Shown here: positions 1,633-12,060 of the stretch, piece after piece
Position numbering within the stretch: position 1 is the first letter of the stretch
Layout: the number at the start of each line of letters is the position of its first letter
Source: Lactiplantibacillus brownii
Lineage (GTDB): Bacteria > Bacillota > Bacilli > Lactobacillales > Lactobacillaceae
Length of the DNA: 12,108 nt
Direction of reading: 5' to 3'
NCBI RefSeq assembly: GCF_031085375.1
Contig: NZ_JAVCWF010000009.1
Location: 1-12,108 of the forward strand
The notes under the pieces: generated by a model
Told to the model about the DNA's origin: nothing
The model's database searches: none
Seen by the model: the letters and a program-made list of their open reading frames with translations, nothing else
Position numbers and translations under genes: made by a program

Positions 1633-2868
1633 GTGATAAAAACCAAGATAACTAGTCTTGTCGTCATTGGGTTGATTTTGGGGGCAGGCTTATGGTTATA
1701 TGGCAATATTGATGATGATGTTATGACTACAAAAACTGATAGTCAAACAACTAAGGCAGTAAAGCAGGCAAAATCATTAAGTCAACAGTACCAATATAAA
1801 GAAGCAAAATCAGTGTTATCGGGGCACAAAGGAACAACAGTTGATCATCTAAAAAAGAGTATTAATAAGCAACAGTCAAAGTTGGTCACGTGGGATGATC
1901 CGACAAAAATTTCACATCTTTTTTATCATTCACTAATTGTTGATCCTGGTAAAGCTTTCTCATCTAAGCAGGCACAGGGATACAAAGATTATATGGCGAC
2001 CATCGACGAATTTATGCCGATGCTGAATCAGTTATATGATAATGGCTATGTATTAATTAACTTTAAAGATATCATTTCGATTGATAAACAAGGGAAGGTG
2101 ACTTTCAAACCAGTCAAATTACCTGAAGGCAAGAAGCCTTTAATTATATCACAGGATGATGTTAACTATTATGAGTATATGAAGAATTCTGGATTTGCAG
2201 ATAAATTAGTCGTCAATAAGCAAGGTGATGTTAAAAATCAATATACCAATAATGGTCAGAAGAAAATTGGTGATTATGACATGGTACCGATTATTGATAC
2301 CTTCATCAAAAAGCATCCAGATTTCTCATACGGTGGCTCAAAGGGTGTGATTGCTGAAACGGGTTATAATGGGGTGCTAGGTTATCGTTCATCAAAGAGT
2401 CAATATGGTGATACAAAAAAGACACATCGCGAAGCTAAGAAAGCGACAAAGGTTGCTAACGCTATGAAAAAGGAAGGTTGGCAGTTTGCATCGCATTCCT
2501 GGGGTCATATAAATATGACTACGGCCAGTGTTGATGATATCAAAAAGGACACTGCACTTTGGCAAAAGGAAGTACAACCAATTGTTGGTAAAACACCAGT
2601 ATTGATTTTCCCATTTGGAGCAGATATTGGCTCATTTACAAATTATACAAATGATAATGCAAAGTACACTTATCTTAAGAGTAGCGGTTTCAGTATTTTC
2701 GATAATGTTGATGCGTCACAGACATCATGGGGTCAATTAACAAATGATTATTATCGTAATGCGCGGATAAATGTCGATGGTATTCGTTTACATGAAACAA
2801 TGACTGGTGAGAACACGGTTCTAAATGACTTCTTTAATACAAAAGATTTTTATCATCGTGATAAATAA
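1633..2868 (+). CDS. Membrane-anchored polysaccharide deacetylase (NodB-like) family protein, 411 aa
   Basis: Probable cell-surface carbohydrate esterase or a non-catalytic relative. A single hydrophobic segment at residues 7-24 after a KTK motif looks like an uncleaved signal anchor. The body is Lys- and Gln-rich to about residue 85, then carries a NodB-like domain: IISQDDV with the Asp pair at 175-176 (motif 1, usually TFDDG), SHSWGH with H288 and H292 (motif 2), FPFGADIG at about 326-333 (motif 3) and RLHE near residue 387. The Asp-His-His metal ligands are therefore present, but motif 1 is atypical. The start is the GTG at 1633: GGGGGAG (1621-1627) lies 5 bases before it, and the first residues then lead directly into the membrane anchor. 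A TTG at 1594 is open but has no such site. Substrate unknown; peptidoglycan or an exopolysaccharide is plausible. The gene stands alone. Confidence 0.82.
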   Translation: MIKTKITSLVVIGLILGAGLWLYGNIDDDVMTTKTDSQTTKAVKQAKSLSQQYQYKEAKSVLSGHKGTTVDHLKKSINKQQSKLVTWDDPTKISHLFYHSLIVDPGKAFSSKQAQGYKDYMATIDEFMPMLNQLYDNGYVLINFKDIISIDKQGKVTFKPVKLPEGKKPLIISQDDVNYYEYMKNSGFADKLVVNKQGDVKNQYTNNGQKKIGDYDMVPIIDTFIKKHPDFSYGGSKGVIAETGYNGVLGYRSSKSQYGDTKKTHREAKKATKVANAMKKEGWQFASHSWGHINMTTASVDDIKKDTALWQKEVQPIVGKTPVLIFPFGADIGSFTNYTNDNAKYTYLKSSGFSIFDNVDASQTSWGQLTNDYYRNARINVDGIRLHETMTGENTVLNDFFNTKDFYHRDK

Positions 2869-2871
2869 TGA

Positions 2872-3009
2872 AGAGCGCGAGACAAAAGTCGTCAACAAAA
2901 AATTGGGTTATTTTTCAAACAGTTAGACAACACTATCACTCTTCATCAACGTAAGTTAGATTTGTTGAAAGAACAGAAAAAAGGCTTTTTACAAAATATG
3001 TTTGTATAG
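2872..3009 (+). pseudogene. 3' remnant of a type I restriction specificity subunit gene (hsdS)
   Basis: From about 2887 the frame reads [14 protein letters not shown], then [17 protein letters not shown], ending NMFV and TAG at 3007-3009. This is the hallmark C-terminal end of HsdS subunits from lactic acid bacteria: the last conserved helix after the second target-recognition domain. Only about 40 codons remain, with no start codon or ribosome binding site, and an in-frame TGA at 2869-2871 cuts it off directly behind the deacetylase gene. No hsdM or hsdR is present. HsdS plasmids of this group recombine often, so this is most simply a scar of a lost hsdS gene. The stop codon begins the motif AGGGTCTATAAT, which recurs twice elsewhere in the plasmid. 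Confidence 0.85.
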
Positions 3010-3019
3010 GGTCTATAAT
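3008..3019 (+). repeat. AGGGTCTATAAT boundary motif, copy 1
   Basis: This 12-bp motif overlaps the hsdS remnant stop codon. An identical copy lies at 9454-9465, just after the DUF3923 gene, and a variant (AGGGTCCATTAT) at 3656-3667 overlaps the stop codon of the membrane-protein gene. All three sit at the 3' end of a rightward gene, and two of them precede the shared hairpin block. Confidence 0.6.
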
Positions 3020-3054
3020 CTCCATTTGATAAAAATTACAAAGAAGGGACAAAG

Positions 3055-3657
3055 ATGACTTTGCCTATCTTATTTTCTTGGCCTATGACATTTTTTGCAT
3101 TCATATTGCTAACTATATCTGATTTTTTATATTTAAAACATGAAATAAAAAGACTAACTGATACAAAAAAGACTCTAACAATTATTACCCTTCTATTTTC
3201 ACTTTCAGTAAGTATTTATGTTGCCGCATCTATTGGTCACATTGTAACTAAGGACTATTCAAGTAATACAACTTTTTTTATTTTCGGCTTCGAATCAATA
3301 ACGATTACATTAACAAGTTTATTTTTTCTATTTATTACAGCAAAAAAAAATATTTTAGACAGAAAAGAAACTATACACCTGGCCCAACAAAAATATTTTG
3401 GGCACAATTTAATCATGTTTTTTTCTATGGTTCACTATGTAACAGGATTAACTGATCTTGTATTTATATTTAGTCTCATATATCTACCGGAGTTTCTTGA
3501 CTATCTACTTCCAATCCCAAATAATTATCCAGGTAACGTTATTTTCCTTAATCTTCAAAGTTTATTTATTATTATTAGTGTATTCGTCATACCCTTTTTA
3601 TTATTAATCTGGGTGCCAAAATATTTCAGAAAACAATTAAGTAAAACAAAAAAATAG
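3055..3657 (+). CDS. Five-helix integral membrane protein of unknown function, 200 aa
   Basis: I do not recognise a family. Hydrophobic segments lie at about residues 5-27, 40-63, 73-96, 116-145 and 163-187, separated by short charged loops (LKHEIKRL, AKKNILDRKE), and the tail is basic (YFRKQLSKTKK), suggesting a cytoplasmic C-terminus. No cysteine-rich, ATP-binding or transport signature is visible. The ATG at 3055 is supported by GAAGGG at 3043-3048. The gene follows the hsdS remnant directly and converges on mazEF; both share the hairpin at 3698-3738. It is more AT-rich than repB and full of A and T runs, suggesting separate ancestry. Its position matches that of the DUF3923 membrane protein in the second cassette. 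An immunity or stress role would be a guess. Confidence 0.75.
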   Translation: MTLPILFSWPMTFFAFILLTISDFLYLKHEIKRLTDTKKTLTIITLLFSLSVSIYVAASIGHIVTKDYSSNTTFFIFGFESITITLTSLFFLFITAKKNILDRKETIHLAQQKYFGHNLIMFFSMVHYVTGLTDLVFIFSLIYLPEFLDYLLPIPNNYPGNVIFLNLQSLFIIISVFVIPFLLLIWVPKYFRKQLSKTKK

Positions 3658-3738
3658 GGTCCATTATTACAAAATAACCCCTCGAAAACATTGAAAGAAT
3701 AACCCCCAATATCTATAATATAGATATTGGGGGTTATT
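3656..3738 (+). repeat. Shared gene-end and hairpin block, copy 1
   Basis: From the variant boundary motif at 3656 through the hairpin, this block matches 9454-9536: both contain ATAACCCCTCGAAAACATTG, then AAAGAATA and the long stem. It joins a rightward membrane-protein gene to a leftward TA operon in both places, although the genes on either side are unrelated. Confidence 0.8.
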
Positions 3739-3740
3739 TG
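3698..3740. terminator. Bidirectional terminator between the membrane-protein gene and mazF
   Basis: There is a perfect 18-bp stem (3698-3715 with 3721-3738) around the loop TAATA. The right arm is followed by TGTTTTAATATT for rightward transcripts; on the other strand the stem ends AGGTTATT-like with TTCTTTC beyond it. It can end both the gene at 3055 and mazEF. Compared with the copy at 9496-9536, one stem pair is A-T here and G-C there. Confidence 0.8.
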
Positions 3741-3766
3741 TTTTAATATTAAAGAAATGACTTCTT

Positions 3767-4111
3767 CTATTTGTCATCAATACTAAACAATAATTTGTAC
3801 AAAGTGATTATTTCTTCTAGTTCTTCACGCGATACATGATCGACAATAGTTTCATCAGTGACATGTCTTGCCCGTAAATCTAAGGCTATGGTTTGATCTA
3901 ATAATACTTTTCCATATACTGTTTGACTACTAGTTAGTCGATGATACATTGGAAAATTACGCTTGGTACTGCTAATTGGAGCCACAATCGTCATGTTACT
4001 TGTCTGACAGACTAGATCATTGCTTAGAGCAATGGCTGGTCGCTTATTCATCTGTTCATGACCACGGCTTGGATTAAAGTTAACATAAAATATATCACCT
4101 TGGCTTACCAT
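3767..4111 (-). CDS. mazF: MazF/PemK-family endoribonuclease toxin, 114 aa
   Basis: Toxin of a type II TA pair: a ribosome-independent, sequence-specific mRNA ribonuclease. Family marks are clear: GDIFYVNFNPSRGHEQ at residues 5-20, KRPAIALSND at 23-32 with the catalytic Arg at R24, and VAPISST at 43-49 with the catalytic Ser/Thr position around S47-S48, followed by the conserved LLDQ segment. The 114 aa length is typical. The ATG lies inside the end of mazE (7-base overlap, 4105-4111), which gives translational coupling. It is transcribed leftward and ends at the shared hairpin at 3698-3740. The RNA recognition sequence cannot be deduced. Confidence 0.93.
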   Translation of the reverse strand: MVSQGDIFYVNFNPSRGHEQMNKRPAIALSNDLVCQTSNMTIVAPISSTKRNFPMYHRLTSSQTVYGKVLLDQTIALDLRARHVTDETIVDHVSREELEEIITLYKLLFSIDDK

Positions 4112-4368
4112 TGAAGTTCATTGCCTTCTGACTTTCCCCAATCAAGCTCGTGATCCCTTTCCCCGTCATCTTTCCAATCCTTAAATAGTTCGTGAATATT
4201 GGTTGGGTTCTTTTTTATTGGTGTTAAAACAATTGATCCATTTTCAATGGTTATTGTCATATCTTGGTTATCATCTAATTTCAGTTGTTTAATAATTTGG
4301 CTAGGAATTCTAGCAGCTTTCGAGTTTCCCCACTTTGCTAAGCGTGTTTGTTCTTTAATAAGTTCCAT
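4105..4368 (-). CDS. mazE: MazE-family antitoxin (AbrB-type DNA-binding domain), 87 aa
   Basis: Antitoxin that neutralises MazF and, with it, represses the operon. The N-terminal half is a swapped-hairpin AbrB/MazE fold: TRLAKWGNSKAARIP at residues 8-22, followed by QIIKQLKLDDNQDMTITIEN and VLTPIKK. The acidic, Trp-containing tail (HELFKDWKDDGERDHELDWG) is the expected toxin-wrapping segment. I chose the ATG at 4368 because GGAGGAG lies just upstream (4374-4380 on this strand) and the alternative upstream start would add 27 residues with no family resemblance. The operon promoter with an internal palindrome lies at 4401-4429. The start codon is 85 bases from that of the divergent recombinase gene. 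Confidence 0.93.
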   Translation of the reverse strand: MELIKEQTRLAKWGNSKAARIPSQIIKQLKLDDNQDMTITIENGSIVLTPIKKNPTNIHELFKDWKDDGERDHELDWGKSEGNELQW

Positions 4369-4400
4369 ATTTTCTCCTCCTAAACTATTATCACAAGTCA

Positions 4401-4429
4401 AGTATATCCCGTGTAGATACACAATGCAA
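4401..4429 (-). promoter_or_regulatory. mazEF promoter with a palindromic operator in its spacer
   Basis: On the minus strand there is TTGCAT (4424-4429), a 17-base spacer and TATACT (4401-4406). The spacer contains the palindrome GTGTA-GA-TACAC (4411-4422), well placed for autorepression by a MazE-MazF complex. The site also lies 25-53 bases before the divergent recombinase gene, so repressor binding could affect both. Confidence 0.65.
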
Positions 4430-4453
4430 ATATTCTTACTGGAGGTCATTTAC

Positions 4454-5041
4454 ATGCAACAAGTTGTCTTACCCATAAAAGATTCAAACGTTCTTAAAGA
4501 GGTTCAAGATACGTTACTCAATAACTTTAAAGCTGGCCGACGTAACTATACGATTTTTCAAGTTGGTAAAGCGACGCTACTGCGAGTGAGTGACGTTATG
4601 GGCTTAAAACAGGCCGATATTTTTAATCCGGACGGTTCTATTAAACAAAATGCGTTTATTCATGACCGAAAAACTGGTAAACCTAATACCTTGTACCTTA
4701 AACCTGTTCAAACAGAGCTCTTATTGTACCGTCAATGGCTGCTTGATCATAAGCTGGATTCTGAATGGCTCTTTCCTTCAATTCAACACCCAGAACGCCA
4801 TATTACTGAAAAACAGTTCTACAAAATTATGAGTAAGGTTGGCGATCTATTAGGAATTAATTATCTAGGTACTCATACGATGCGCAAAACTGGGGCTTAT
4901 CGTGTTTACACGCAATCAAATTACAATATTGGCCTAGTCATGCACTTACTAAATCACTCAAGTGAATCAATGACTTTAGCTTATTTAGGCTTGGATCAAG
5001 CAAGTACAGAAAACATGTTGAACCAAATTGATTTTGGGTAA
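4454..5041 (+). CDS. Short tyrosine recombinase (catalytic domain only), copy 1, 195 aa
   Basis: Site-specific DNA recombinase of the XerC/phage-integrase superfamily. The catalytic set is complete: R44 in LLRVSD, K73 in DRKTGK, H141 and R144 in HTMRKT, H168 in LLNHSS and the nucleophile Y177 in LAYLGL. The R144-H168-Y177 spacing (24 and 9) is canonical. At 195 aa it lacks the N-terminal core-binding domain of ordinary ~300-aa integrases; only about 30 residues precede the catalytic domain. The ATG at 4454 has GGAGGT at 4441-4446, 7 bases upstream; a longer open frame reads back over mazE and is not supported. The second copy at 10247 differs by two residues (Q2R, S172A). The natural target is unknown. 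It could resolve multimers, move the cassette or invert DNA. Confidence 0.9.
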   Translation: MQQVVLPIKDSNVLKEVQDTLLNNFKAGRRNYTIFQVGKATLLRVSDVMGLKQADIFNPDGSIKQNAFIHDRKTGKPNTLYLKPVQTELLLYRQWLLDHKLDSEWLFPSIQHPERHITEKQFYKIMSKVGDLLGINYLGTHTMRKTGAYRVYTQSNYNIGLVMHLLNHSSESMTLAYLGLDQASTENMLNQIDFG

Positions 5042-5058
5042 ATTAGTTTGATTTTGTT

Positions 5059-5073
5059 GTCGCCAACGGCGAC
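5059..5073 (+). other. Hairpin after the recombinase gene
   Basis: GTCGCC-AAC-GGCGAC forms a 6-bp stem 17 bases after the stop codon. TTTTT follows only some 15 bases later, so it is a weak terminator candidate. In the second copy (10852-10866) one stem base is changed, leaving a 5-bp stem. Confidence 0.4.
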
Positions 5074-5105
5074 TTCTGATACAGGTTTTTAATGGGTCTA
5101 GCACA

Positions 5106-5138
5106 ACATAGAATAAATTCTATGTGTAAGTGCGCATT
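5106..5138 (+). other. oriT: oriT-like site with a MOBQ-type nic region, copy 1
   Basis: A perfect 9-bp inverted repeat, ACATAGAAT-AA-ATTCTATGT (5106-5125), is directly followed by GTAAGTGCGCATT (5126-5138). Known nic regions of the RSF1010/pSK41 (MOBQ) group have this design: an inverted repeat, then a core of the type TAAGTGCGC. The nick would fall within or beside GTGCGC (by homology). No relaxase is encoded here, so mobilisation would need a helper in trans. The identical core occurs at 10899-10931. Confidence 0.75.
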
Positions 5139-5170
5139 GACCTCGTTTTACTCGGTCTGCTGATAACCAT

Positions 5171-5486
5171 AGAGTCGATTTTTCCCGTCGTTGAATTGAA
5201 TGTATTTTTAATTAAATTATGCTTACACTTAACTAATCTTGTTATGATTTAAATTTTTGCAGAGATTCTTTGTAAACTTAGCAACAAAATTTTACAATCT
5301 ACCTTAAGGCCCTCATTTCCCTTTGGGTCTAATGATTTCCAAATAGAAAACAACGAACATAGTGAGGCCTTAGCAAACACAATACTAGTCAATACCCAAT
5401 TTACAATAGTGATTCGAAAGTTACGAACGTCAGTGAGTTACTCTAGGTAAGTGCTTTAGCACTTACTATATATAATATGAACAAAG
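5171..5486. other. Gene-free stretch after oriT copy 1, with small hairpins
   Basis: No credible gene. Up to about 5310 it resembles the DNA after the second recombinase (10964-11160), but copy 1 lacks the roughly 50 bases at 11045-11100 and the 64-aa gene that follows there. It also holds an imperfect stem AAGGCC(C)TCA...TGAGGCCTT (about 5304-5373) and the perfect hairpin GTAAGTGC-TTTA-GCACTTAC at 5447-5466. Two short motifs related to ACGAACG...GTGAG lie at about 5372 and 5433. Confidence 0.5.
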
Positions 5487-5720
5487 GTAATTCACAAACT
5501 TTACACTCACATAAACGCTCATATATCAACGTTATCAAGCCACTAACTAGCGGGATAAATATTTCATGGTCAAACATTATCTAATTCTACACGTTTAACA
5601 CCAAGCAATCGCACGTCATAACACACCGTATAGCCCCACTAAAACGACTTCTAAGAGGCTTTGAACTATGTCACGTGTATTTACCTTGATATGCTAAAAC
5701 GTCTTAAATCGTATTTTAAA
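5487..5720. repeat. Non-coding block of about 235 bp, copy 1 (function unknown)
   Basis: This matches 6623-6855 in long conserved runs (GTAATTCACAAACTT, AGCGGGATAAATATTTCA, CACCAAGCAATC, CACGTCATAACAC, TTCTAAGAGGCTTTGAACTA) separated by diverged stretches. No reading frame is conserved. Each copy is followed by a ~12-bp hairpin whose loop is AATTAA. The pattern of conserved islands suggests function (structured RNA, centromere or binding sites), but I cannot name it. Confidence 0.7.
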
Positions 5721-5750
5721 ACAGGCTCGTCAAATTAATGACGGGCCTGT
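5721..5750 (-). terminator. Hairpin with AATTAA loop after the non-coding block, copy 1
   Basis: ACAGGCTCGTCA (5721-5732) pairs with TGACGGGCCTGT (5739-5750) with one G-T pair around AATTAA. On the minus strand it is followed by TTTTAAAATACG, a modest terminator tail. No leftward gene remains to its right, so it may be a leftover. The sequence from here to the next hairpin shows no gene. Confidence 0.45.
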
Positions 5751-5841
5751 CTGTATGCTGGAATTTTCACACTATTATGAAGTGGATGTGTCATTATGTC
5801 GGAGACACAAGCTTGATTATAGCACTATGCAAACTTGGTGT

Positions 5842-5876
5842 AAAAACAAAAAAATGAGCACCCGGGTAAGTGCTCA
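5842..5876 (-). terminator. Strong leftward Rho-independent terminator without a visible gene
   Basis: The minus strand reads TGAGCAC, an 8-base loop, GTGCTCA, then a T-rich run of 13 (TTTTTTTGTTTTT). It is a textbook terminator for leftward transcription. The DNA it should serve (5877-5970) holds only a small GTCCC/GGGAC hairpin and then the insertion element, so its gene has probably been lost. Confidence 0.65.
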
Positions 5877-5970
5877 CCAAGAAGTTGTCACATTGAAACG
5901 AAATACCATGAGTCCCGACTGATGGGACAACTCTATTTTAGATCATTCTAATTAAATTGCAATATTAAAA

Positions 5971-6498
5971 GAGAGCGTAAAATATCTTGTGTAAATGCAT
6001 AAAAGATTTCTGAATTGTATAGAAATAGGGAATGCCTTCCCTTATGATATTTAGTAATCACAGAAAACATCACAGGAGGCATTCCCCATGAATGAACTTA
6101 CCACAGAAATTATCGCTGCACTAGCCCAAAAGCAAGATTTGGACGAAGTTTTTCGTCACCACCTCGAAATTGCGATTAACCAGCTGCTTCAAACCGAATT
6201 TACTCACTTTCATGGACTTTCCACCAGCTATCCGGCAATCACTATACTCCACTAACCTGATTGAGAACTTTAATAAGCATCTCAAGCGCACCACCCACCA
6301 CAAAGAACAATTTCCAACCGAAGATTCACTGGATCGCTTTCTGGTTTCTCAGTTTAATGTTTATAACGAGAAGTCTATGAAGCGGATCCACCGAGGGTTC
6401 AAAGGACTCCAGGACACCTTGGAAGCATCATTTATTTAAGTTAGATACATATTATATGTACGAAGGCATTTCATTTACACAAGATTCTTGACGCTACC
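5971..6498 (+). mobile_element. Internally deleted IS256-family element, 528 bp
   Basis: The ends form 27-bp imperfect inverted repeats: 5971-5997 and 6472-6498 match at 22 of 27 positions, sharing AGCGT near the tip and TCTTGTGTAAATG inside. Between them is the start and the end of an IS256-type transposase gene with the middle missing (a full element is about 1.3-1.4 kb). The flanking octamers TATTAAAA and TGATACTT do not form a target duplication. With both ends present it could in principle be moved in trans by a related transposase. Confidence 0.85.
6088..6439 (+). pseudogene. IS256-family transposase remnant, deleted and frameshifted
   Basis: The ATG at 6088, preceded by AGGAGG at 6074-6079, begins MNELTTEIIAALAQKQDLDE and continues through HHLEIAINQLLQTE, the normal N-terminus of lactobacillus IS256-type transposases. 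After about 6195 the reading frame shifts: this frame runs into a stop at 6253-6255, while the adjacent frame carries the authentic C-terminus (LLTFMDFPPAIRQSLYSTN, LIENFNKHLKR, then RFLVSQFNVYNEKSMKRIHR, ending EASFI at 6439). A full transposase is about 390 aa; roughly 37 N-terminal and 80 C-terminal residues remain. The DDE catalytic domain is essentially lost except its last helix (STNLIENFNKHLKR). The junction lies near 6196-6207. No active enzyme is possible. Confidence 0.88.
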
Positions 6499-6622
6499 TG
6501 ATACTTGCGCAAGCAAGTTATTTGTCACGAACGAACGTGTGAGTGAGTTGCTCTTGGCTTCCCTTGGAGCCGTCAAGGGAAAACAACGGAGCGCTTAGCG
6601 TAGGCGTTAGTATAATAGCAGA
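6499..6622. other. Gene-free stretch between the IS element and the second non-coding block
   Basis: No gene found. It contains CACGAACGAACGTGTGAGTG at about 6527 and CGGAGCGCTTAGCGTAGGCG at about 6588. These resemble short motifs at 5372, 5433, 11568 and 11765, a low-level family that recurs near the repeated blocks and the origin. No function can be assigned. Confidence 0.4.
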
Positions 6623-6855
6623 CGTAATTCACAAACTTAAAACGTACATAAACGTTGTTATATCAACATTATTAGAATAAAAGTAGCGGGATAAATATTT
6701 CACGACCAAATAGTATCTAATCTATACGTTCAACACCAAGCAATCACACGTCATAACACTTCGTATAGCCCCGTTAAAATGAGTTCTAAGAGGCTTTGAA
6801 CTATGTCACGTAAATTATGTCACGACTAGCTAAAACTTCTTATAACGTATTTTAA
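6623..6855. repeat. Non-coding block of about 235 bp, copy 2 (function unknown)
   Basis: This is the diverged partner of 5487-5720, by eye around three-quarters identical, with several exactly shared runs. It has an extra internal direct repeat, ATGTCACG (6802-6809 and 6817-6824). It ends next to the AATTAA-loop hairpin at 6867-6896. The deleted IS element lies between the two copies. Confidence 0.7.
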
Positions 6856-6861
6856 CGTAAT

Positions 6862-6906
6862 AAAAACCAGCAGACTACAATTAAGTAATCTACTGGCCTG
6901 CTTTTT
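6862..6906. terminator. Bidirectional terminator after the small unknown gene
   Basis: CCAGCAGACTAC (6867-6878) pairs with GTAATCTACTGG (6885-6896) with two G-T pairs around AATTAA. The stem is followed by TTTTT on the plus strand (6902-6906) and by TTTTTATTACG on the minus strand. It ends the leftward gene that stops at 6905. Confidence 0.7.
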
Positions 6907-7177
6907 ATGACTTTTCTTTCTCAATTCCCCACTCAGCAGCATTTAACTTATCCTTAACGTCAAGGTCTTTGTTGGCCGCAACAGTAACCTCATTATCATT
7001 TTTACAATGAGTAAATCTATCTGGGTCAAACAAAAGCATCTTATTATAAAACTTTTCACCATCAACGATTGTTCCTACACGCGTCCCATCGTTTTCAACA
7101 TCTAAACTTATAGGTGTACCCGATAAACTTTTAATAACTTCGTCCTTACTCATATATTCTTTATTAACTTCTGTCAT
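6905..7177 (-). CDS. Small hydrophilic protein of unknown function, 90 aa
   Basis: Not recognised. It is soluble and acidic, with no membrane segment, signal or cysteine pattern (a single Cys at about residue 58). The first half (EYMSKDEVIKSLSGTPISL, GTRVGTIVDGEKFYN) looks like a compact alpha/beta domain; the last 30 residues are charged and probably helical. The ATG at 7177 has AAGGTGG about 8 bases upstream; an internal Met at residue 9 is a less likely start. It is transcribed leftward and ends directly in the hairpin at 6862-6906. It is not linked to the YxeA-like gene upstream: about 245 bases with a strong hairpin separate them. Confidence 0.7.
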   Translation of the reverse strand: MTEVNKEYMSKDEVIKSLSGTPISLDVENDGTRVGTIVDGEKFYNKMLLFDPDRFTHCKNDNEVTVAANKDLDVKDKLNAAEWGIEKEKS

Positions 7178-7301
7178 TTAAATGACCACCTTACTTTTAT
7201 ATTTGAATAGACTTCCTCTATCCACTTTATAATATAACGATCAAGTGATAATAAATCACAATATAATAAAATAACTTAGTTAACATAATCCCCATTAATC
7301 A

Positions 7302-7347
7302 AAGTACCCCTACTAACACCGTGTTAGCAGGGGTACTTGTTTTTTAC
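7302..7347 (+). terminator. Very strong rightward terminator in an unexpected orientation
   Basis: AAGTACCCCT (7302-7311) and CTAACAC (7313-7319) pair with GTGTTAG (7321-7327) and AGGGGTACTT (7329-7338), with one mismatch, followed by GTTTTTT on the plus strand. The flanking genes both run leftward, and the minus strand has a poor T run (ACTTTGATTAATG). Confidence 0.7.
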
Positions 7348-7422
7348 TTTGTGAAATTAAATTGGTCTAGGTAAAACGATCAAATCAAAGCCTATTTTAA
7401 CAGCATTCTTATTTTAGGAAAG

Positions 7423-7800
7423 TTAGTGAATTCTAGCCAATGGTGGAACCTGATCACGGCTAACTTTCTTATAATTAGTCACACCAAATTTAGGATTATA
7501 TGTAATTCTAATGATCTGTCCCTTATGAAATGGCCCTAAATCATCAGCAACCGTGTGAACCTCTAACCGTTGCCGATTCCCATACTTATCTTTAGCAATA
7601 CCACGATAAACATAGCCGTTCTGTGTAATCCCAACCGGAACTGTTACAGGAAATGATTCACTACTACCATTAACTCGCATGTAGTAATAATCACCACCAT
7701 ACCGATAAATATGCCACCCAATACTTAAAACTGTAACTCCAACTAGGAAAACAACCAAGACACTTTCTATCCAATGATTTTTAATTGCAGACTTACTCAA
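7423..7800 (-). CDS. YxeA-like (DUF1093) membrane-anchored protein, 125 aa
   Basis: A small secreted or membrane-tethered protein of the DUF1093/YxeA type, whose function is unknown. A hydrophobic segment at about residues 12-31 is followed by an extracytoplasmic domain with the family pattern: DYYYMRVNG, GYVYRGIAKDKYGNRQRLEV, a Gly-Pro-Phe-Lys-Gly turn (LGPFHKGQIIRITYNPKFGV) and the ending YKKVSRDQVPPLARIH, matching the usual VP..A terminus. I chose the TTG at 7800, because AGGGGG lies 8 bases before it; a TTG at 7806 is only 2 bases from that site. No lipobox Cys follows the segment, so it is probably anchored by an uncleaved helix. No linked operon partners. The only nearby RNA signal, upstream, is the structured RNA candidate that starts about 500 bases away. 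Confidence 0.8.
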   Translation of the reverse strand: MSKSAIKNHWIESVLVVFLVGVTVLSIGWHIYRYGGDYYYMRVNGSSESFPVTVPVGITQNGYVYRGIAKDKYGNRQRLEVHTVADDLGPFHKGQIIRITYNPKFGVTNYKKVSRDQVPPLARIH

Positions 7801-8017
7801 AAACAAATCCCCCTAAACTCTATAAAAACACTTAAAACTAACTTGACTTTGGTTTCGCCCTTTGCTGTTCAGAACGCTTGAACCTGAGCGGGATATAGTT
7901 TTCCCCTTGTTTTGCGAAGAAGAAAACTTTTTGTTGTTCGTCACGAATCACCGTCACGTAAAAACACTTGTATTGTTACTATTGCGCTTGTAGATTAGCC
8001 TAACTAATTTAGCCTAT
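7801..8017. other. Gene-free stretch between the YxeA-like gene and the RNA candidate
   Basis: No gene seen. It contains an AT-rich 7-bp hairpin, AGTTTTC/GAAAACT (7897-7903 with 7922-7928), followed by TTTTGTTGTT on the plus strand: a weak rightward terminator. Around 7966-7995 the plus strand has TTGTAT, 17 bases, TAGATT, a poor promoter match pointing towards the RNA candidate. Confidence 0.35.
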
Positions 8018-8041
8018 AAAAAAAGCACCCTTTATAGGTGC
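8018..8041 (-). terminator. Leftward terminator of the structured RNA candidate
   Basis: On the minus strand GCACC, a 7-base loop, GGTGC (8025-8029 with 8037-8041), then seven T (8018-8024). A competing 8-bp stem, CCTATAAA/TTTATAGG (8013-8020 with 8031-8038), would occupy the T run; whether this acts as a switch is open. Confidence 0.6.
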
Positions 8042-8350
8042 CAGCAATCATTTATTTTTAGTTGTTTGGATCACTGGCCTTGCGTAATCGCCCTGTACTT
8101 TCGTACTGCTTTACCGCCCGCCCCGTACGTGGGGCCACCGTTCGGAACCAACCTAAATACAAGTATAGGTTAATTCCTAGTGGGAGTTTATAGCGGCGGC
8201 TCTCACTTGACCTGTCGACTTGTTTCATTAGCTCCGCTAACCGGCTGTCAGTCCTCGAAAGGTAAGATTAGTTGGCTTGGCTAGAATGTTGCCACTCTAG
8301 TAACGGGGCTTGGCTCCCCCGTGATCCAGAAAAATTCAACTCTACCCACT
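8018..8350 (-). ncRNA. Candidate structured non-coding RNA, about 330 nt, family not identified
   Basis: This GC-rich island is packed with stems and has no reading frame. An 8-bp long-range helix closes it (8067-8074 with 8321-8328, GGATCAC/GTGATCC). Read on the minus strand, inner elements include CTAGAGTG-GCAA-CATTCTAG (8281-8300, an 8-bp stem with a GNRA tetraloop that pairs fully only on this strand), GTAC-GAAA-GTAC (8095-8106), GCCCC/GGGGC (8120-8135), AACCTA/TAGGTT (8150-8171) and TTAGC-GGA-GCTAA near 8230. A terminator with seven U follows (8018-8041). Possible promoter: TGTGTT, 17 bases, TAAGAT (8357-8385). One stem near 8180-8215 fits the plus strand better, so orientation is not certain. 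It lacks recognisable RNase P, tmRNA or group II domain V signatures. Confidence 0.5.
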
Positions 8351-8378
8351 TGAAAAATCTTACAATAGTAGGTAAAAT
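8350..8378 (+). promoter_or_regulatory. Rightward promoter for a short RNA
   Basis: TTGAAA (8350-8355), a 17-base spacer and TAAAAT (8373-8378): the best-looking promoter in this region. Transcription from about 8385 would meet a terminator after only ~55 bases. Confidence 0.55.
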
Positions 8379-8384
8379 GAACAC

Positions 8385-8439
8385 ATAAACTTTGATAAGG
8401 GTTATGTGTTCCCCCGGTGGTGACCGAGGGAATTTTTTT
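8385..8439 (+). ncRNA. Candidate small RNA of about 55 nt
   Basis: It lies between the promoter at 8350-8378 and a terminator at 8409-8439: stems TTCCC/GGGAA and GGT/ACC with a CC/GA internal loop, then seven T. No start codon with a plausible frame is present. The DNA also contains the palindrome GAACACATAA/TTATGTGTTC (8379-8388 with 8402-8411), which overlaps the start site and could be an operator. It runs divergently from the structured RNA candidate. Confidence 0.4.
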
Positions 8440-8468
8440 GTCTATTCAATTTAGTTACAAACAGTATT

Positions 8469-8506
8469 ATACCCCTTTGCCGATAATATGACAAAGGGGT
8501 ATTTTT
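8469..8506. terminator. Terminator at the end of the second DUF536 gene
   Basis: A perfect 11-bp stem ATACCCCTTTG/CAAAGGGGTAT (8469-8479 with 8492-8502). The T run is better on the plus strand (TTTTT at 8502-8506), so it may act in both directions: for the leftward gene ending at 8505 and for rightward readthrough of the short RNA. Confidence 0.65.
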
Positions 8507-8993
8507 AACGTCTTAGCCAGCCGAATAAGCCCTTTTTAAGCGTTTTTGTTTCTTCCCACTTAGAATTACTCTCGGTAGGCTTTAAAACGTCTGTATCGTC
8601 GTTTTGCGAGGGGCTATCGTCCTTTGAGGGGGTGTTGTTCGTAGAGGTATCAAGTAATTTTTCGTTTTGACGGTTAGTAGACAAATTGAGCTGTTGTTGC
8701 TGGTCAAGTAATTGAGTTAGCTTTTCAATTTGTCTATCCTTTTTGTCTAGTTGACGTCGAATTATATCAAGAACTTTATCGTCAATTGGTGACGTTTTTT
8801 CTTGTTTAGCCTTGGTGTTACTATTTGCATAGTATTTACGAATAGCATTGACAGCACTATCGTCAATTACATATCTATCATTGCTGTCTTTTGAGGGTTT
8901 TTCGTTGTCATCAAGCATATCAATGATTTGATAAACCCTTGCACGTGATATCTTCAAATCTTTAGCTATTGAAGATATTGTCTTATTTGCCAT
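8505..8993 (-). CDS. Second DUF536-type protein, not linked to a rep gene, 162 aa
   Basis: Related to the protein at 929-1507. The N-terminal HTH is TISSIAKDLKISRARVYQII (residues 4-23), the DUF536 signature is KDRQIEKLTQLLDQQQQLNL (about 84-103) inside a coiled coil, and a Ser/Asp-rich linker leads to a basic, aromatic tail (KKGLFGWLRR). The shorter length comes mainly from the linker. The ATG at 8993 is preceded by AAAGGA. Unlike its paralogue it has no initiator gene or iterons beside it, and a palindrome, TTAAC-ATA-GTTAA (9030-9042), lies in its upstream region as a likely operator. It is either a leftover from a second replicon or a free-standing regulator; the sequence does not decide. 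Confidence 0.82.
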   Translation of the reverse strand: MANKTISSIAKDLKISRARVYQIIDMLDDNEKPSKDSNDRYVIDDSAVNAIRKYYANSNTKAKQEKTSPIDDKVLDIIRRQLDKKDRQIEKLTQLLDQQQQLNLSTNRQNEKLLDTSTNNTPSKDDSPSQNDDTDVLKPTESNSKWEETKTLKKGLFGWLRR

Positions 8994-9029
8994 TTTACGT
9001 CATCCTTTACGTTAGTCTATACGTTTATA

Positions 9030-9042
9030 TTAACATAGTTAA
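9030..9042 (-). promoter_or_regulatory. Palindromic candidate operator before the second DUF536 gene
   Basis: TTAAC-ATA-GTTAA, perfect 5-bp arms, 37-49 bases upstream of the start codon. On the minus strand it overlaps a possible promoter: TTCACC, 17 bases, TATAAA. Binding by the HTH protein encoded downstream is an inference. Confidence 0.4.
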
Positions 9043-9143
9043 TCAAGGTGAACACTGAACGAGGGCTTAGAACACGTCTCTCAACATATGATATATATCC
9101 TATCGCGGAGATTTTTAAGAATAGTGGCTGTTTTGGCTCGATA

Positions 9144-9172
9144 TGGACGGCTGCCTTTCTGACCAGTATAAT
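9144..9172 (+). promoter_or_regulatory. Promoter of the DUF3923 gene
   Basis: TGGACG (9144-9149), a 17-base spacer and a consensus TATAAT (9167-9172). It gives a leader of about 55 bases to the gene at 9232. Confidence 0.55.
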
Positions 9173-9231
9173 TCTATTACGCCAATTAGTTAGTACATAT
9201 TACTACCAAAAGAAGGAGTAACCCCAAACAC

Positions 9232-9444
9232 ATGAAATTAAAAGTTTGGTGGCTAAGCAATCTTATTTGGCTAATCATCTTCAGTATATTAAGCTTTGTA
9301 ATTTTCATTAGAAAAGTTGCTGGTGCTGGAACGATTCAAACGCCAGCAACTAAATTAGCTGCTTTTATTGTGCTAGTGGTTTTCTTTATTGTTATCATCT
9401 TGATCCAACTTGTCTTACTGCTATTTGTTAAGCATAGAAAGTAA
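9232..9444 (+). CDS. DUF3923-family small membrane protein, 70 aa
   Basis: A two-helix membrane protein of unknown function. The first hydrophobic segment is at about residues 6-26 after KVWW, then a short loop with RKVAGAGTIQTPATK, then a second segment at about 44-66 and a basic end (KHRK). The WWLSN start and the AGAGTIQTP loop resemble the DUF3923 family of Firmicutes. The ATG at 9232 is preceded by AGAAGGAG (9211-9218), with a rather long gap of 13 bases. It is monocistronic and convergent with dinJ-yafQ, sharing the hairpin at 9496-9536. This is the same position as the five-helix protein in the first cassette, although the two proteins are unrelated. Confidence 0.8.
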   Translation: MKLKVWWLSNLIWLIIFSILSFVIFIRKVAGAGTIQTPATKLAAFIVLVVFFIVIILIQLVLLLFVKHRK

Positions 9445-9453
9445 AACTAAATC

Positions 9454-9536
9454 AGGGTCTATAATTCACAAATAACCCCTCGAAAACATTGAAAGAATAG
9501 CCCCCAATATCTACATTATAGATATTGGGGGCTATT
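9454..9536 (+). repeat. Shared gene-end and hairpin block, copy 2
   Basis: This starts with the AGGGTCTATAAT motif (9454-9465) and includes the same ATAACCCCTCGAAAACATTG stretch and hairpin as 3656-3738. It lies between a rightward membrane-protein gene and a leftward TA operon in both copies. Confidence 0.8.
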
Positions 9537-9540
9537 TTAA
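9496..9540. terminator. Bidirectional terminator between DUF3923 and yafQ
   Basis: A perfect 18-bp stem (9496-9513 with 9519-9536) around the loop CATTA, followed by TTAATTTATT on the plus strand. Relative to the copy at 3698 the fifth stem pair is G-C instead of A-T: both arms changed together, so the stem has been preserved. Confidence 0.8.
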
Positions 9541-9572
9541 TTTATTCTTTTATAAGTGCCCCTAAACTATAG

Positions 9573-9875
9573 CTATTGATTCAAGATTTCATGGGAGCCA
9601 GTTGCAACCAATAACAAAATCAATTCATCATGATCTAGCTGATAAATAACAATCCAGTTGTCATAATTTTTACCATAGCTCCCATATCTGGCAGGGTGAA
9701 ATTCACGATAGCCACGCCAATTTCCTTTTAATGCATGATCTTTAATCTGTTTCAAAACAAGTACATCTTGTTCAACAATTGCTTCTAAACAAGGCTTCAA
9801 GACAGTTATTGGGAAATGTTTTTTGACTAGTTTTTTTAATTCACGTTCAAAAGATTTGGTCTGTTTAATTTGCAT
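9573..9875 (-). CDS. yafQ: YafQ-type (RelE superfamily) mRNA interferase toxin, 100 aa
   Basis: Toxin of a type II pair that cleaves mRNA on the ribosome. Family marks: an N-terminal helix pair (SFERELKKLVKKH), DHALKGNWRGYREFH with catalytic-type His at 47 and 60, DNWIVIYQL with D72 and W74 in place of the usual Asp-Trp pair, and TGSHEIL with H95 near the C-terminus. The stretch between H60 and D72 is a few residues longer than in E. coli YafQ. The gene starts inside the antitoxin gene (11-base overlap, 9865-9875) and ends about 35 bases before the shared hairpin. The toxin should be active, as no key residue is missing apart from the inserted Asn in the D-N-W pair. Confidence 0.9.
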   Translation of the reverse strand: MQIKQTKSFERELKKLVKKHFPITVLKPCLEAIVEQDVLVLKQIKDHALKGNWRGYREFHPARYGSYGKNYDNWIVIYQLDHDELILLLVATGSHEILNQ

Positions 9876-10143
9876 CTAACTTATCGATCCAATCTTCAAA
9901 GTCAGTCAATGAACCAATGTTTTTGACCTGCCCTGTTTCTGCTTCTTTTTTAGCGGCTAAGGCTTCCGGAGAATCTAAAAAGCTGACTAATCGAACTTCA
10001 TTATTGGCCGCTTTAACTAACGATAAGCGTATATACTCAGAAACGGTTAGCCCTTGTTTTGCTAGATTAGCTTTAGCCCGTTCACTAATGTCAGGTGTTA
10101 CACGAGTTGAAATTGTCTTGTTTTTAATAATAGTATTACTCAT
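9865..10143 (-). CDS. dinJ: RelB/DinJ-family antitoxin (ribbon-helix-helix), 92 aa
   Basis: Antitoxin and autorepressor for the YafQ-type toxin. Residues 9-45 form a ribbon-helix-helix domain (TISTRVTPDISERAKANL, GLTVSEYIRLSL). The C-terminal part, with SLTDFEDWIDKL, is the probable toxin-binding segment. The ATG at 10143 has AAAGGAGG 9 bases upstream, a strong site. The promoter is at 10183-10211. It is divergent from the second recombinase gene with 103 bases between the two start codons. It is unrelated to mazE, which takes the same place in the first cassette. Confidence 0.9.
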   Translation of the reverse strand: MSNTIIKNKTISTRVTPDISERAKANLAKQGLTVSEYIRLSLVKAANNEVRLVSFLDSPEALAAKKEAETGQVKNIGSLTDFEDWIDKLDAN

Positions 10144-10182
10144 TCTAATCCGCCTCCTTTAAGTTTACCATCGTACTACATT

Positions 10183-10211
10183 ATAATATTCGATTTTTAG
10201 GTTTTCTGCAA
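10183..10211 (-). promoter_or_regulatory. dinJ-yafQ promoter
   Basis: On the minus strand TTGCAG (10206-10211), a 17-base spacer and TATTAT (10183-10188). I see no perfect palindrome in it, so the operator is not identified. Confidence 0.55.
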
Positions 10212-10246
10212 CTAAATTAATTTTAAAGTAAAGGAACTAACAGCTT

Positions 10247-10834
10247 ATGCGACAAGTTGTCTTACCCATCAAAGATTCAAACGTTCTTAAAGAGGTTCAA
10301 GATACGTTACTCAATAACTTTAAAGCTGGCCGACGTAACTATACGATTTTTCAAGTTGGTAAAGCGACGCTACTGCGAGTGAGTGACGTTATGGGCTTAA
10401 AACAGGCCGATATTTTTAATCCGGACGGTTCTATTAAACAAAATGCGTTTATTCATGACCGAAAAACTGGTAAACCTAATACCTTGTACCTTAAGCCTGT
10501 TCAAACAGAGCTCTTATTGTACCGTCAATGGCTGCTTGATCATAAGCTAGATTCTGAATGGCTCTTTCCTTCAATTCAACACCCAGAACGCCATATTACT
10601 GAAAAACAGTTCTACAAAATTATGAGTAAGGTTGGCGATCTATTAGGAATTAATTATCTAGGTACTCATACGATGCGCAAAACTGGGGCTTATCGTGTTT
10701 ACACGCAATCAAATTACAATATTGGCCTAGTCATGCACTTATTAAATCATTCAAGTGAAGCCATGACTTTAGCTTATTTAGGCTTGGATCAAGCAAGTAC
10801 AGAAAACATGTTGAACCAAATTGATTTTGGGTAA
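10247..10834 (+). CDS. Short tyrosine recombinase (catalytic domain only), copy 2, 195 aa
   Basis: Nearly identical to the recombinase at 4454-5041, with two replacements (R instead of Q at residue 2, A instead of S at 172) and no change in the catalytic set (R44, K73, H141, R144, H168, Y177). Upstream DNA is unrelated to that of copy 1: the ribosome binding site here is AAGGA at 10231-10235, 11 bases from the ATG, weaker and further away than the GGAGGT of copy 1, so expression probably differs. The gene is divergent from dinJ. It is followed by the same hairpin and oriT-like site. Two intact copies on one small plasmid, with little divergence, indicate a recent duplication or fusion. Confidence 0.9.
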   Translation: MRQVVLPIKDSNVLKEVQDTLLNNFKAGRRNYTIFQVGKATLLRVSDVMGLKQADIFNPDGSIKQNAFIHDRKTGKPNTLYLKPVQTELLLYRQWLLDHKLDSEWLFPSIQHPERHITEKQFYKIMSKVGDLLGINYLGTHTMRKTGAYRVYTQSNYNIGLVMHLLNHSSEAMTLAYLGLDQASTENMLNQIDFG

Positions 10835-10898
10835 ATTAGTTTGATTTTGTTGTCGCCAACAGCGACTTCTGATACAGGTTTTTAATGGGTCTAGCACA

Positions 10899-10931
10899 AC
10901 ATAGAATAAATTCTATGTGTAAGTGCGCATT
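10899..10931 (+). other. oriT: oriT-like site with a MOBQ-type nic region, copy 2
   Basis: The same 9-bp inverted repeat (10899-10918) followed by GTAAGTGCGCATT (10919-10931), identical to copy 1 at 5106-5138 and in the same orientation. No relaxase gene lies nearby. Confidence 0.75.
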
Positions 10932-10963
10932 GACCTCGTTTCACTCGGTCTTCTGATAACCAT

Positions 10964-11207
10964 GAAATCAGTTTTTGCCGTTGTTGAATTGACTGTATTT
11001 TTAATTCAATTTATGTTTGCACCTAAACTAAGATTGTTATGTTTTAAATATTTAAAAAGTGTTACGGATTACGCTGTTTTAAGCCAATTTTTTTAATCGT
11101 TCTGTGCAAAGAATCTTTATAAGTTTGGTAACAAATTTTGAATAACGGTACTGTAAAATCTGTAAATCTAAACTGAAATCATTATTTTGATGTCAGGAGT
11201 AATTAGG
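10964..11207. other. Gene-free stretch between oriT copy 2 and the 64-aa gene
   Basis: It is weakly similar to 5171-5310, with shared pieces such as TGTATTTTTAATT and a GCA..GA.TCTTT..AA.TT stretch. It has an extra segment of about 50 bases (around 11045-11100) containing TTACGGATTACGCTG. A promoter for the next gene may lie at 11128-11157 (TTGGTA, 18 bases, TACTGT), but the match is poor. Confidence 0.4.
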
Positions 11208-11402
11208 ATGGACGAAAAGAAAGTATTAAAACCAATTAATGAAGTGCTTGCTGATCCTTGGCAAGTTGATATTCAAGAATTGTTTGAAGCTTCTGTCAAT
11301 GAACCTGACGAGATTAAAAAGAATTTGTATGATTCCTTATACACTTATATTTTGCAAAAAAGACAAGAAGATATTATTAATCGTCCTGGCTTCGTTATTT
11401 AA
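11208..11402 (+). CDS. Small acidic protein of unknown function, 64 aa
   Basis: Not recognised. It is hydrophilic and probably all helical: VLKPINEVLADPW, then VDIQELFEASVNEPDEIKKN and LYDSLYTYILQKRQEDIINR, ending PGFVI. No membrane segment or cysteine. I chose the ATG at 11208 because AGGAG at 11195-11199 lies 8 bases upstream; in-frame starts at 11187 and 11190 have no such site. A clear terminator follows within 10 bases of the stop codon, so it is a compact single-gene unit between oriT copy 2 and the origin. The equivalent place after oriT copy 1 has no such gene. A role in copy control or mobilisation can be imagined from position only. Confidence 0.75.
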   Translation: MDEKKVLKPINEVLADPWQVDIQELFEASVNEPDEIKKNLYDSLYTYILQKRQEDIINRPGFVI

Positions 11403-11408
11403 CCCTCT

Positions 11409-11435
11409 AAAAGCCTGCTGAGGGCTTTTTGTTTT
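11409..11435 (+). terminator. Terminator of the 64-aa gene
   Basis: AAAAGCC (11409-11415) pairs with GGCTTTT (11423-11429), followed by TGTTTTG. Its place just after the stop codon at 11400-11402 supports that small gene. Confidence 0.75.
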
Positions 11436-11872
11436 GCTTTGGTATAAATGTATATGAATGGTCTTAAAATCGCTAGAAACGAAAAATAAGACCCTTAAAA
11501 ACGAACATAGCAGCTAAAATCTTTTTTAGATTCAAAAAACTAACTGTTTGCTGTCAATGGTAGCGGACGAGCAAAGCGTGGGAGCATAAGGAATTGACAG
11601 CTCTAAACCAGTCTTAACACTGAATTGGCGAAAGCCAAAGTTTCTATAAAACTTTGCTTTCCTGCCTAACGGCGAGTGAAAAAGCGGTTAAGCTGGCTCA
11701 GCTTGGACGGGGTTCGGGGCGTTAGCGCCCGGTTAAATGTGGCTTGTCACTCCTTTGCAGGCAACGAACGAAGTGAGGCGCAAAGAGCGTAGCGAATGAA
11801 GTTTAATGTGAGCCTGTTTTTGGGCTCACTCCTTTGTATTTTTGTTTTAGATTTTGATCTTGTACACTGGTG
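11436..11872. other. Gene-free leader of the replication origin
   Basis: No gene found. It contains small stems (GGGCG-TTAG-CGCCC near 11717, GTGAGCC/GGCTCAC near 11807-11829, an AAAGTTT/AAACTTT pair near 11638-11657) and short G+C-rich motifs such as CGAACGAAGTGAGGCG near 11766 and GCGTAGCG near 11788. Such DNA is common upstream of RepB iterons in this plasmid group; I can assign no individual function. Confidence 0.45.
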
Positions 11873-11915: not shown

Positions 11916-11955
11916 AGACCCCTATTGTGCCTTACTCCCCCAAGGCGTACAGAAG

Positions 11956-12059: not shown

Positions 12060-12060
12060 A

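Follow-up and report, generated by a model that had tools for sequence, protein, structure and literature searches.

How two nearly identical recombinase blocks came to lie on one Lactiplantibacillus brownii plasmid, each beside a different toxin-antitoxin (TA) pair, was the question raised by the window, the whole stretch of 12,108 nt analyzed here.

Two Modules Share One Layout and Carry Different TA Pairs

An earlier note had described twin cassettes, and this layout was borne out: two modules have the same order of parts and different TA pairs (Table 1). The recombinase copies starting at 4454 and 10247 were 99% identical over the reported 300 nt, the 717-bp blocks (4454-5170 and 10247-10963) matched at 98%, and the hairpin blocks (3651-3739 and 9449-9537) were 88% identical, i.e., 12% different. 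Contig C10 of the same genome matched the 717-bp block 4454-5170 at 90%. The sharp edge of similarity noticed at the recombinase start codon was confirmed in both 717-bp matches (the second copy and C10); it is the onset of homology between the modules and need not be a crossover point. Pfam assignments also agreed with the claimed difference in cargo, MazE and PemK (MazF) at 3767-4371 versus YafQ and a RelB-like antitoxin at 9573-10143. On the other hand, the membrane-protein gene that had been counted as a common part proved to be two different genes, one for a 200-aa protein without Pfam family and one for a 70-aa DUF3923 protein. Because these left genes are different, they are cargo rather than a shared module part. 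The common hairpin block was retained in part: the hairpin is present, but a 28-bp two-arm site and then a linker come before it in the block.

The stem of hairpin 1 is perfect and 20 nt long (3698-3738), and the hairpin is a putative terminator. MicroRNA families were rejected as its identity, their Rfam scores being far under the cut-offs. The repeat in the downstream block resembles an oriT, and about 130 bp of the block's first copy stands alone on other plasmids. A module would be a plasmid recombination and maintenance unit composed of a core site, a linker with hairpin, a TA operon pointing at the hairpin and a small single-domain recombinase.

Table 1. Features of the two modules and of the predicted fusion partners in the window.
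Feature	Position	Strand	Basis or remark
Relic half site	3008..3024	+	left arm and spacer TCTCCA joined to DNA without right arm
Left cargo of site 1, 200-aa membrane-like protein	3055..3657	+	no Pfam family; stop codon overlaps site
Core site 1	3656..3683	+	left arm 3656-3666, spacer 3667-3672 (TTACAA), right arm 3673-3683
Linker and hairpin 1, terminator-like on + strand	3684..3739	.	compensatory pairs in relatives
MazF/PemK toxin	3767..4111	-	PF02452
MazE antitoxin	4105..4371	-	PF04014
Tyrosine recombinase copy 1, 195 aa, catalytic domain only	4454..5041	+	PF00589
Downstream block common to both modules, with oriT-like repeat (about 5096-5140)	5042..5170	+	717-bp comparison
Left cargo of site 2, DUF3923 protein, 70 aa	9232..9444	+	PF13061
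Core site 2	9454..9481	+	left arm 9454-9464, spacer 9465-9470 (TTCACA), right arm 9471-9481
Linker and hairpin 2	9482..9537		
YafQ toxin	9573..9875	-	PF15738
RelB/DinJ-type antitoxin	9865..10143	-	PF04221; TIGR02384 under its cut-off
Tyrosine recombinase copy 2, 195 aa	10247..10834	+	PF00589
Downstream block, second copy	10835..10963	+	717-bp comparison
Predicted partner A, p256-like half, 5797 bp	3672..9468	.	junction in L142, L014, L139
Predicted partner B, piece 1 (repA, DUF536/repB-like gene, deacetylase, membrane gene)	1..3671		
Predicted partner B, piece 2 (DinJ-YafQ, recombinase 2, iteron-like repeats)	9469..12108		

A Xer-Like Core Site Marks the Left Border

The 28-bp site inside the hairpin block reads AGGGTCTATAA-6 bp-AATAACCCCTC, an 11-6-11, Xer-like arrangement in which two 11-bp arms are imperfectly inverted around a 6-bp spacer. 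Core sites 1 and 2 were called from the pattern match plus the break-point profile over relatives. In its own genome the core pattern (at most 2 mismatches) had three occurrences, two of them on C9 and one on C10, and none on other contigs; C3 and C4 hold blocks with deviating left arms. Left of the 200-aa membrane gene, relatives carry other DNA than the region of the relic half site. Literature searches listed no description of the 28-bp site, and the left-arm sequence turned up in three listed papers, each about other organisms.

The break points were then compared across relatives. Where identical left flanks were joined to different TA modules, 63% of 109 pairs (53 sites) had their first mismatch within the 6-bp spacer, 12% of the same-left pairs in the right arm and 6% beyond it. 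The counts of arm and spacer sequences in the site set omit the 26 of 111 sites without a 28-mer starting AGGG at the fixed offset, and four block matches without recognizable right arm were excluded. Among same-left/different-right pairs (115 pairs, 57 of 111 sites), left-arm columns were 0.93-1.0 identical, with one polymorphic column at 0.79. Identity in the first four spacer columns was 0.66, 0.68, 0.51, and 0.74 in these 115 pairs versus 0.43, 0.63, 0.36, and 0.44 in random site pairs. Since same-left pairs are more alike than random pairs within the spacer too, and some of them break only later (12% and 6%), a single crossover at one base does not account for all junctions. Similarity to the window began at the site in 60/60 of the best 60 plasmid rows for the MazEF half and in 50/60 of the best 60 for the DinJ-YafQ half.

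Geometry and natural break points thus agree in indicating a candidate Xer-type site (two 11-bp arms, 6-bp spacer, exchange at the spacer). As judged from the sequences, the left border is the only one with a signature of site-specific recombination, and the exchanged DNA would be that left of the site, namely the cargo and the other plasmid half. Plain homologous recombination in the 90-bp and 717-bp blocks could also build mosaics with no site-specific event. Both blocks are alike enough to recombine, and association with TA type decreases gradually over the hairpin and linker (0.70, 0.48, 0.38, 0.34), so some exchange probably occurs there. However, homologous breaks would scatter over the block, whereas the observed left flanks stayed almost identical to the end of the left arm, with most breaks in the spacer, and similarity among the relatives listed starts at the site. 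Homologous recombination is thus an improbable sole source of the mosaics.

Within the site set, an open frame of at least 60 codons ended near the left side in 70/111 (11 of these within the site edge), 30/111 were without such a frame, 7 had it in the opposite direction and 4 were too close to a contig end. A cargo gene abutting the site is therefore frequent, not general.

A Small Recombinase Accompanies the Site

The residues R44, K73, H141, R144, H168, and Y177 were invariant in 80/80 uninterrupted 195-aa relatives, and the catalytic set R-K-H-R-H/W-Y of PF00589 was also kept in 21 protein rows of alignment A2. Viral contigs contributed five recombinase relatives, three of which served as protein alignment rows. 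In NCBIfam equivalog searches the 195-aa recombinase scored far below the cut-offs for XerA (48.7 vs 220 bits), XerS (24.3 vs 267), XerC (22.6 vs 335), and XerD (21.7 vs 330).

The exact site pattern was found in 60/301 Lactobacillaceae genomes searched, and the reversed control pattern gave 0 in every genome row printed. The recombinase was present in 51/60 site-bearing genomes versus 60/241 site-free genomes (Fisher p 9e-18); the other 9/60 site-bearing genomes had no recombinase match at the limit used. Among the relatives surveyed, the proposed borders do occur together: 86/97 distinct full-length recombinase genes have the block, 82/86 of them at a near-fixed distance of 697-762 bp, and 5 of the 11 genes without block start <900 bp from a contig end. 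The 195-aa tyrosine recombinase is presumably the enzyme acting at the core site, and dimer resolution would be its routine job.

The host XerC/XerD could instead act on the site, as on pdif modules, with the plasmid recombinase incidental. This is unlikely. The site does resemble the sole dif-like match on contig C1 of the same genome, obtained with a dif pattern of other Firmicutes, in its 11-6-11 geometry and its inner left arm (TATAA), and the 9/60 genomes without a recombinase match fit a host enzyme. On the other hand, the right arm AATAACCCCTC is unlike TTATGTAAAC of the C1 match, the distance between block and recombinase is near-fixed, and site and gene co-occur.

The Plasmid Is Probably a Cointegrate

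Fusion of two plasmids, each with one site-TA-recombinase module, is the best explanation of the twins, and sequence comparison makes it probable that the plasmid is a cointegrate of p256-like and pUCL287-like plasmids formed at the core sites by the 195-aa tyrosine recombinase. The plasmid p256, which carries the MazEF module, matched window 3654-5970 at 96-97%; the two pieces of the pUCL287-like partner B total 6311 bp. Both predicted un-fused junctions occur in other plasmids, A in L142, L014, and L139 (97%) and B in L015 only (94%). L142 and L014 differ from the window in the spacers of their readable sites, and L015 has a shorter junction site, indicating that these relatives are not direct parents.

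Most likely, the recombinase binds both arms and exchanges strands in the spacer. Exchange between two plasmids would give a cointegrate with two directly repeated sites, and exchange between repeats in one molecule would resolve dimers and cointegrates. In the window, site 1 to site 2 would correspond to plasmid A and site 2 round to site 1 to plasmid B. Neighboring site pairs were in direct orientation in 28/29 cases on 19 records, or 17/18 without five multimeric records; the one opposite pair is in L154. The multimers L014, L019, L153, L155, and L157, and L018 in part, have identical direct sites still unresolved, and may be assembly products or a sign of weak resolution.

Tyrosine recombinases are often intolerant of spacer differences. 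The window's two sites differ in spacer, which counts against this reading. Distinct sites on one record (multimer copies aside) had different spacers wherever both were readable, but this may be no more than chance, as random pairs were equal in only 0.119.

Simple duplication of one module within the plasmid, with later TA replacement, was already disfavored and is very improbable: the 717-bp blocks are 98% identical, as a duplication would leave them, but the hairpin blocks differ by 12%, relatives of each half occur apart, and both un-fused junctions exist. Beyond the fusion itself, we tentatively consider a Lactobacillales plasmid assembly system in which the small recombinase and the 28-bp site might fuse and resolve replicons, the variable spacer might be a compatibility code stabilizing some fusions, and fusion at one border with resolution at the other, core site versus recombinase gene, might substitute one TA pair for another; plasmids would then shuffle replicon, cargo, and addiction module independently.

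TA Replacement Probably Involves a Second Crossover

The idea of cargo exchange between constant borders stood insofar as TA pairs vary: a listing of what lies between the same borders gave six kinds of TA pair, with toxins of four Pfam families. The visible crossover, on the other hand, swaps DNA left of the site. The 200-aa left gene was joined to MazEF (window), DinJ-YafQ (L015, L165), and PrlF-PemK (L163, L164), and the DUF3923 gene to MazEF in L139, L142, and L014. No association between left flank and TA type was detectable (nearest-neighbor agreement 0.24 vs 0.27 shuffled). TA type and recombinase were partly linked (0.55-0.59 vs 0.26 in shuffles), and in 32 pairs the TA classes differed despite recombinase genes at least 98% identical.

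Those 32 pairs, together with the TA-free modules L016 and L152, would suit a recombinase that moves TA cassettes directly, using the core site at one end and a second site at the recombinase start at the other, in the manner of integrons. Such direct movement has little probability, because inspection by eye of the 70 bp preceding the recombinase showed no second arm pair, each TA class has its own leader, and TA class and recombinase are partly linked. Moreover, in the tandem TA of L049 the two pairs are separated by a truncated remnant of a recombinase, as expected after a deletion. L060 is the other tandem TA record.

For one TA pair to replace another, a second crossover, by homology, is probably required. 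Replacement could proceed by homologous fusion in the near-identical recombinase genes followed by core-site resolution, or in the reverse order. Crossovers inside the recombinase gene would predict 5′-3′ fading of the TA association, but agreement was flat (0.58 to 0.55). Mismatches in the recombinase gene showed no 5′ bias. At bases 197-294 the mean identity difference did not exceed that of shuffles, and it was weak at 99-196 and 295-392. With flat association and no 5′ mismatch bias, the analysis of the recombinase gene did not locate the right-hand break. An apparent second crossover point, suggested by recombinase copies ending at base 43, was also discarded. In the two contigs inspected (L046, L094) such copies continue into one common insertion-sequence-like end, and that end likewise lies ahead of a copy starting at base 29 (L097); insertion therefore accounts for them. 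The copies ending at base 86 (L041, L049) have one common deletion.

Relation to Known Systems and Distribution

Integrons combine a tyrosine recombinase and a constant platform with variable cargo. Here, in contrast, the cargo would be whole plasmid parts, and the recombinase lies beyond the TA pair and has the catalytic domain only; the window has core sites 1 and 2 and a single relic half site, with no site array seen. The pdif modules of XerC/XerD have 28-bp 11-6-11 sites, TA cargo, and alternating site orientation. On Acinetobacter plasmids they are described as genes flanked by Xer sites on mosaic plasmids (PMC7399989), a likeness to the present case. The present modules differ in having their own recombinase gene beside the site, arms that are imperfect inverted copies of each other, and mostly direct rather than alternating orientation.

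In XerS/difSL and XerH/difH, a single tyrosine recombinase gene adjoins its site with inverted arms (PMC5357621), as here. XerS (356 aa) and XerH (354-362 aa) act on chromosomes, and the difSL center is 11 bp, whereas the present system is plasmid-borne, with a 195-aa recombinase and a variable 6-bp spacer. Large plasmids with their own recombinase also have the site adjoining it (PMC5357621), and multimer resolution systems share this placement and the plasmid stability context; cer of ColE1, by contrast, uses host XerCD and accessory proteins. A swappable TA pair between site and enzyme is present here and is not described for multimer resolution systems in the available text of PMC5357621. 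In pRC12 and pRC18, recombinase and TA form the region common to both, and the accessible portion of that report mentions no core site or exchange at it (PMC7117683).

Site, recombinase, and swappable TA pair seem to be a kit for rebuilding plasmids from parts in lactic acid bacteria. If the mechanism holds, it would account for much of the mosaic plasmid structure in food and gut lactic acid bacteria and would offer a predictable fusion point for vectors; addiction-module exchange between plasmids would be directly testable. Block or recombinase matches were found in 1274/72,556 plasmid records, and in 894 of these the match spanned 80% or more of the joined query.

Module borders and toxin-antitoxin cargo

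The window corresponds to contig C9 in a 3.35-Mb genome of 11 contigs, and its nearest plasmid records belong for the most part to Lactiplantibacillus. It has the look of a complete 12.1-kb plasmid, with a replication gene at base 1 and, at its far end, direct repeats of 22 bp. The twin layout of two toxin-antitoxin (TA) modules claimed in an earlier note was borne out by repeat, Pfam and block comparisons. The membrane-protein genes that it had placed left of the two hairpin blocks are cargo genes that differ from each other.

Positions of features in the window
Feature	Position	Detail
Core site 1	3656-3683	left, 200-aa membrane-like protein gene; right, MazEF
Core site 2	9454-9481	left, DUF3923 gene; right, DinJ-YafQ
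MazEF half query	3300-5041
DinJ-YafQ half query	9232-10834
p256 match	3654-5970	starts two bases before site 1
Predicted circle A	3672-9468	5797 bp
Predicted circle B	9469-12108 + 1-3671	6311 bp
Relic left half site	3008-3024	spacer TCTCCA
Duplication, ~200 bp	5475-5681 and 6612-6816	79-89% in pieces; flanks transposase-like remnant
Bacillus-plasmid RNA (Rfam RF01691)	11550-11610	74.2 bits; gathering score 31

A survey of 139 sequences yielded 97 distinct full-length recombinase genes. The hairpin block lay upstream on the same strand in 86 of them, at a distance of 697-762 bp in 82; five of the 11 genes without it started less than 900 bp from a contig end. The DNA between block and recombinase was sorted into TA classes with no mutual similarity at the threshold used: Phd-YafQ (33/86), DinJ-YafQ (18/86), MazEF (15/86), a PemK-toxin class (11/86; annotated PrlF-PemK in record L019) and a Gp49/HigB-like toxin class (4/86). 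The five single cases were tandem TAs (L049, L060), a YefM-YoeB-like pair (L092), DinJ-YafQ plus an extra 403-aa frame (L093) and a module without a TA (L016). At the protein level, four Pfam families cover the toxins, PF02452 including MazF and PemK, and PF15738 both YafQ toxins. In both L060 and L049 the two tandem operons lie between site and recombinase; those of L049 are separated by an 86-bp recombinase remnant. Among 60 evenly spaced rows out of 1274 plasmid records, the block was joined to a nearly full recombinase in 20 (9 Phd-YafQ, 3 PrlF or PrlF-PemK, 3 MazEF, 2 DinJ-YafQ, 1 Phd/YefM antitoxin alone, 2 without TA) and to a partial one in two more.

Nearest-neighbour agreement with TA class was measured on 81 modules for the recombinase and 75 for the site (shuffles, 0.26-0.28). 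Right of the site it was 0.38 in the linker, 0.48 and 0.70 in the 5′ and 3′ hairpin halves and 0.96 on the TA side; at the site it was 0.33 (left arm), 0.275 (spacer) and 0.34 (right arm). The left flank gave 0.24, reached by 139 of 200 shuffles in the 75 site modules, and its mean identity difference was reached by 19 of 200. Values were 0.55-0.59 along the recombinase gene and 0.58 downstream, and 32 pairs carried different TA classes on recombinases at least 98% identical.

Probable exchange point within the core site

The hairpin block contains the core site AGGGTCTATAA-NNNNNN-AATAACCCCTC, and block matches fell into two classes, starting at block base 4-6 or at base 22. We aligned 111 sites with full flanks on the right arm and compared 115 same-left/different-right pairs from 57 sites. 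Left-arm identity was 0.93-1.0 per column, save one polymorphic column (0.79). Across the spacer it was 0.66, 0.68, 0.51, 0.74, 0.89 and 0.94, against 0.43, 0.63, 0.36, 0.44, 0.72 and 0.86 in random site pairs. The loss of identity is thus spread across the spacer rather than placed at one base, a pattern expected of 6-bp strand exchange, we infer. Same-right/different-left pairs showed only background identity outside the left arm. At a stricter left threshold (109 mutually non-independent pairs, 53 sites), the spacer held the first mismatch in 63% of cases and the right arm in 12%; it lay further right in 6%, before the left arm in 4%, and within the left arm in 15%, always at the polymorphic column. 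Simulated breaks at the spacer's first base put it in the spacer in 91%, and breaks at the left-arm edge put it in the left arm in 80%.

Next to the 200-aa gene in record L166 (CP120663) is a sequence resembling the site whose arms form a perfect palindrome (AGGGTCCATT and its complement), as would suit a single protein that recognises both. In the window, the relic half site follows an apparent 3′ end of hsdS, and the adjoining DNA upstream of the 200-aa gene differs in relatives.

Probable fusion of two plasmids

Plasmid similarity also begins at the sites, in best-60 sets where many rows are near-identical plasmids. With the DinJ-YafQ half, 50 of the best 60 of 1297 records started in the interval from 25 bp left of the site to the spacer end, 36 of them no more than 5 bp from the first base of the site; six extended into DUF3923 and four started further right, one limited by the record's own start. 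With the MazEF half, all of the best 60 of 450 records started in this interval, 54 within 5 bp.

If exchange at its two sites formed the window, un-fusing it would give circles A and B. Records L142, L014 and L139 (97%) matched the A junction (DUF3923, site, MazEF) without a break, L139 being a 5.0-kb record with the gene order of A; L015 (94%) did so for the B junction (200-aa gene, site, DinJ-YafQ). The p256 match falls on the A half, and p256 represents a separate replicon type. B includes genes for a replication protein and a DUF536 protein. NZ_MF383377.1, taken as pRC12, matched 41% of the window at 94%; pRC12 is described as pUCL287-like, with repA and repB (PMC7117683). None of 1746 matching records covered at least 80% of the window, in a collection that may omit the window's own record. 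Of 29 pairs of neighbouring sites on 19 records, 28 were directly oriented (17 of 18 without five multimers). These counts are limited by redundancy and multimers among the plasmid records and by how few whole plasmids were read. Judged from sequence, the window is quite probably a two-plasmid cointegrate formed at the core sites by the 195-aa recombinase; our confidence was slightly lowered by the comparison of spacer columns with random pairs.

Record L017 (NZ_CP065811.1), circular and 3802 bp long, combines a single core site with genes for a malolactic enzyme and a transporter; it has no annotated replication gene and is possibly an excised circle.

Recombinase and hairpin

The recombinase comprises a catalytic domain only. 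NCBIfam Xer models scored far below their cut-offs, and the solved structures matched at sequence level were of XerD (E 0.0016-0.0017). At E ≤1e-40, it was present in 51 of 60 genomes with the exact site pattern versus 60 of 241 without. Enterococcus (L151) and Lactococcus pLd5 (L150) carry similar sites with related recombinases at a distance of 0.7-2.4 kb and no TA annotated in the interval. There the site directly follows a methylase or hsdS gene, and other genes separate it from the recombinase.

Hairpin pairing was preserved by two-sided changes at two positions among the 111 sites (A-T 60/G-C 33; C-G 81/T-A 21), and the hairpin fits a terminator on the + strand.
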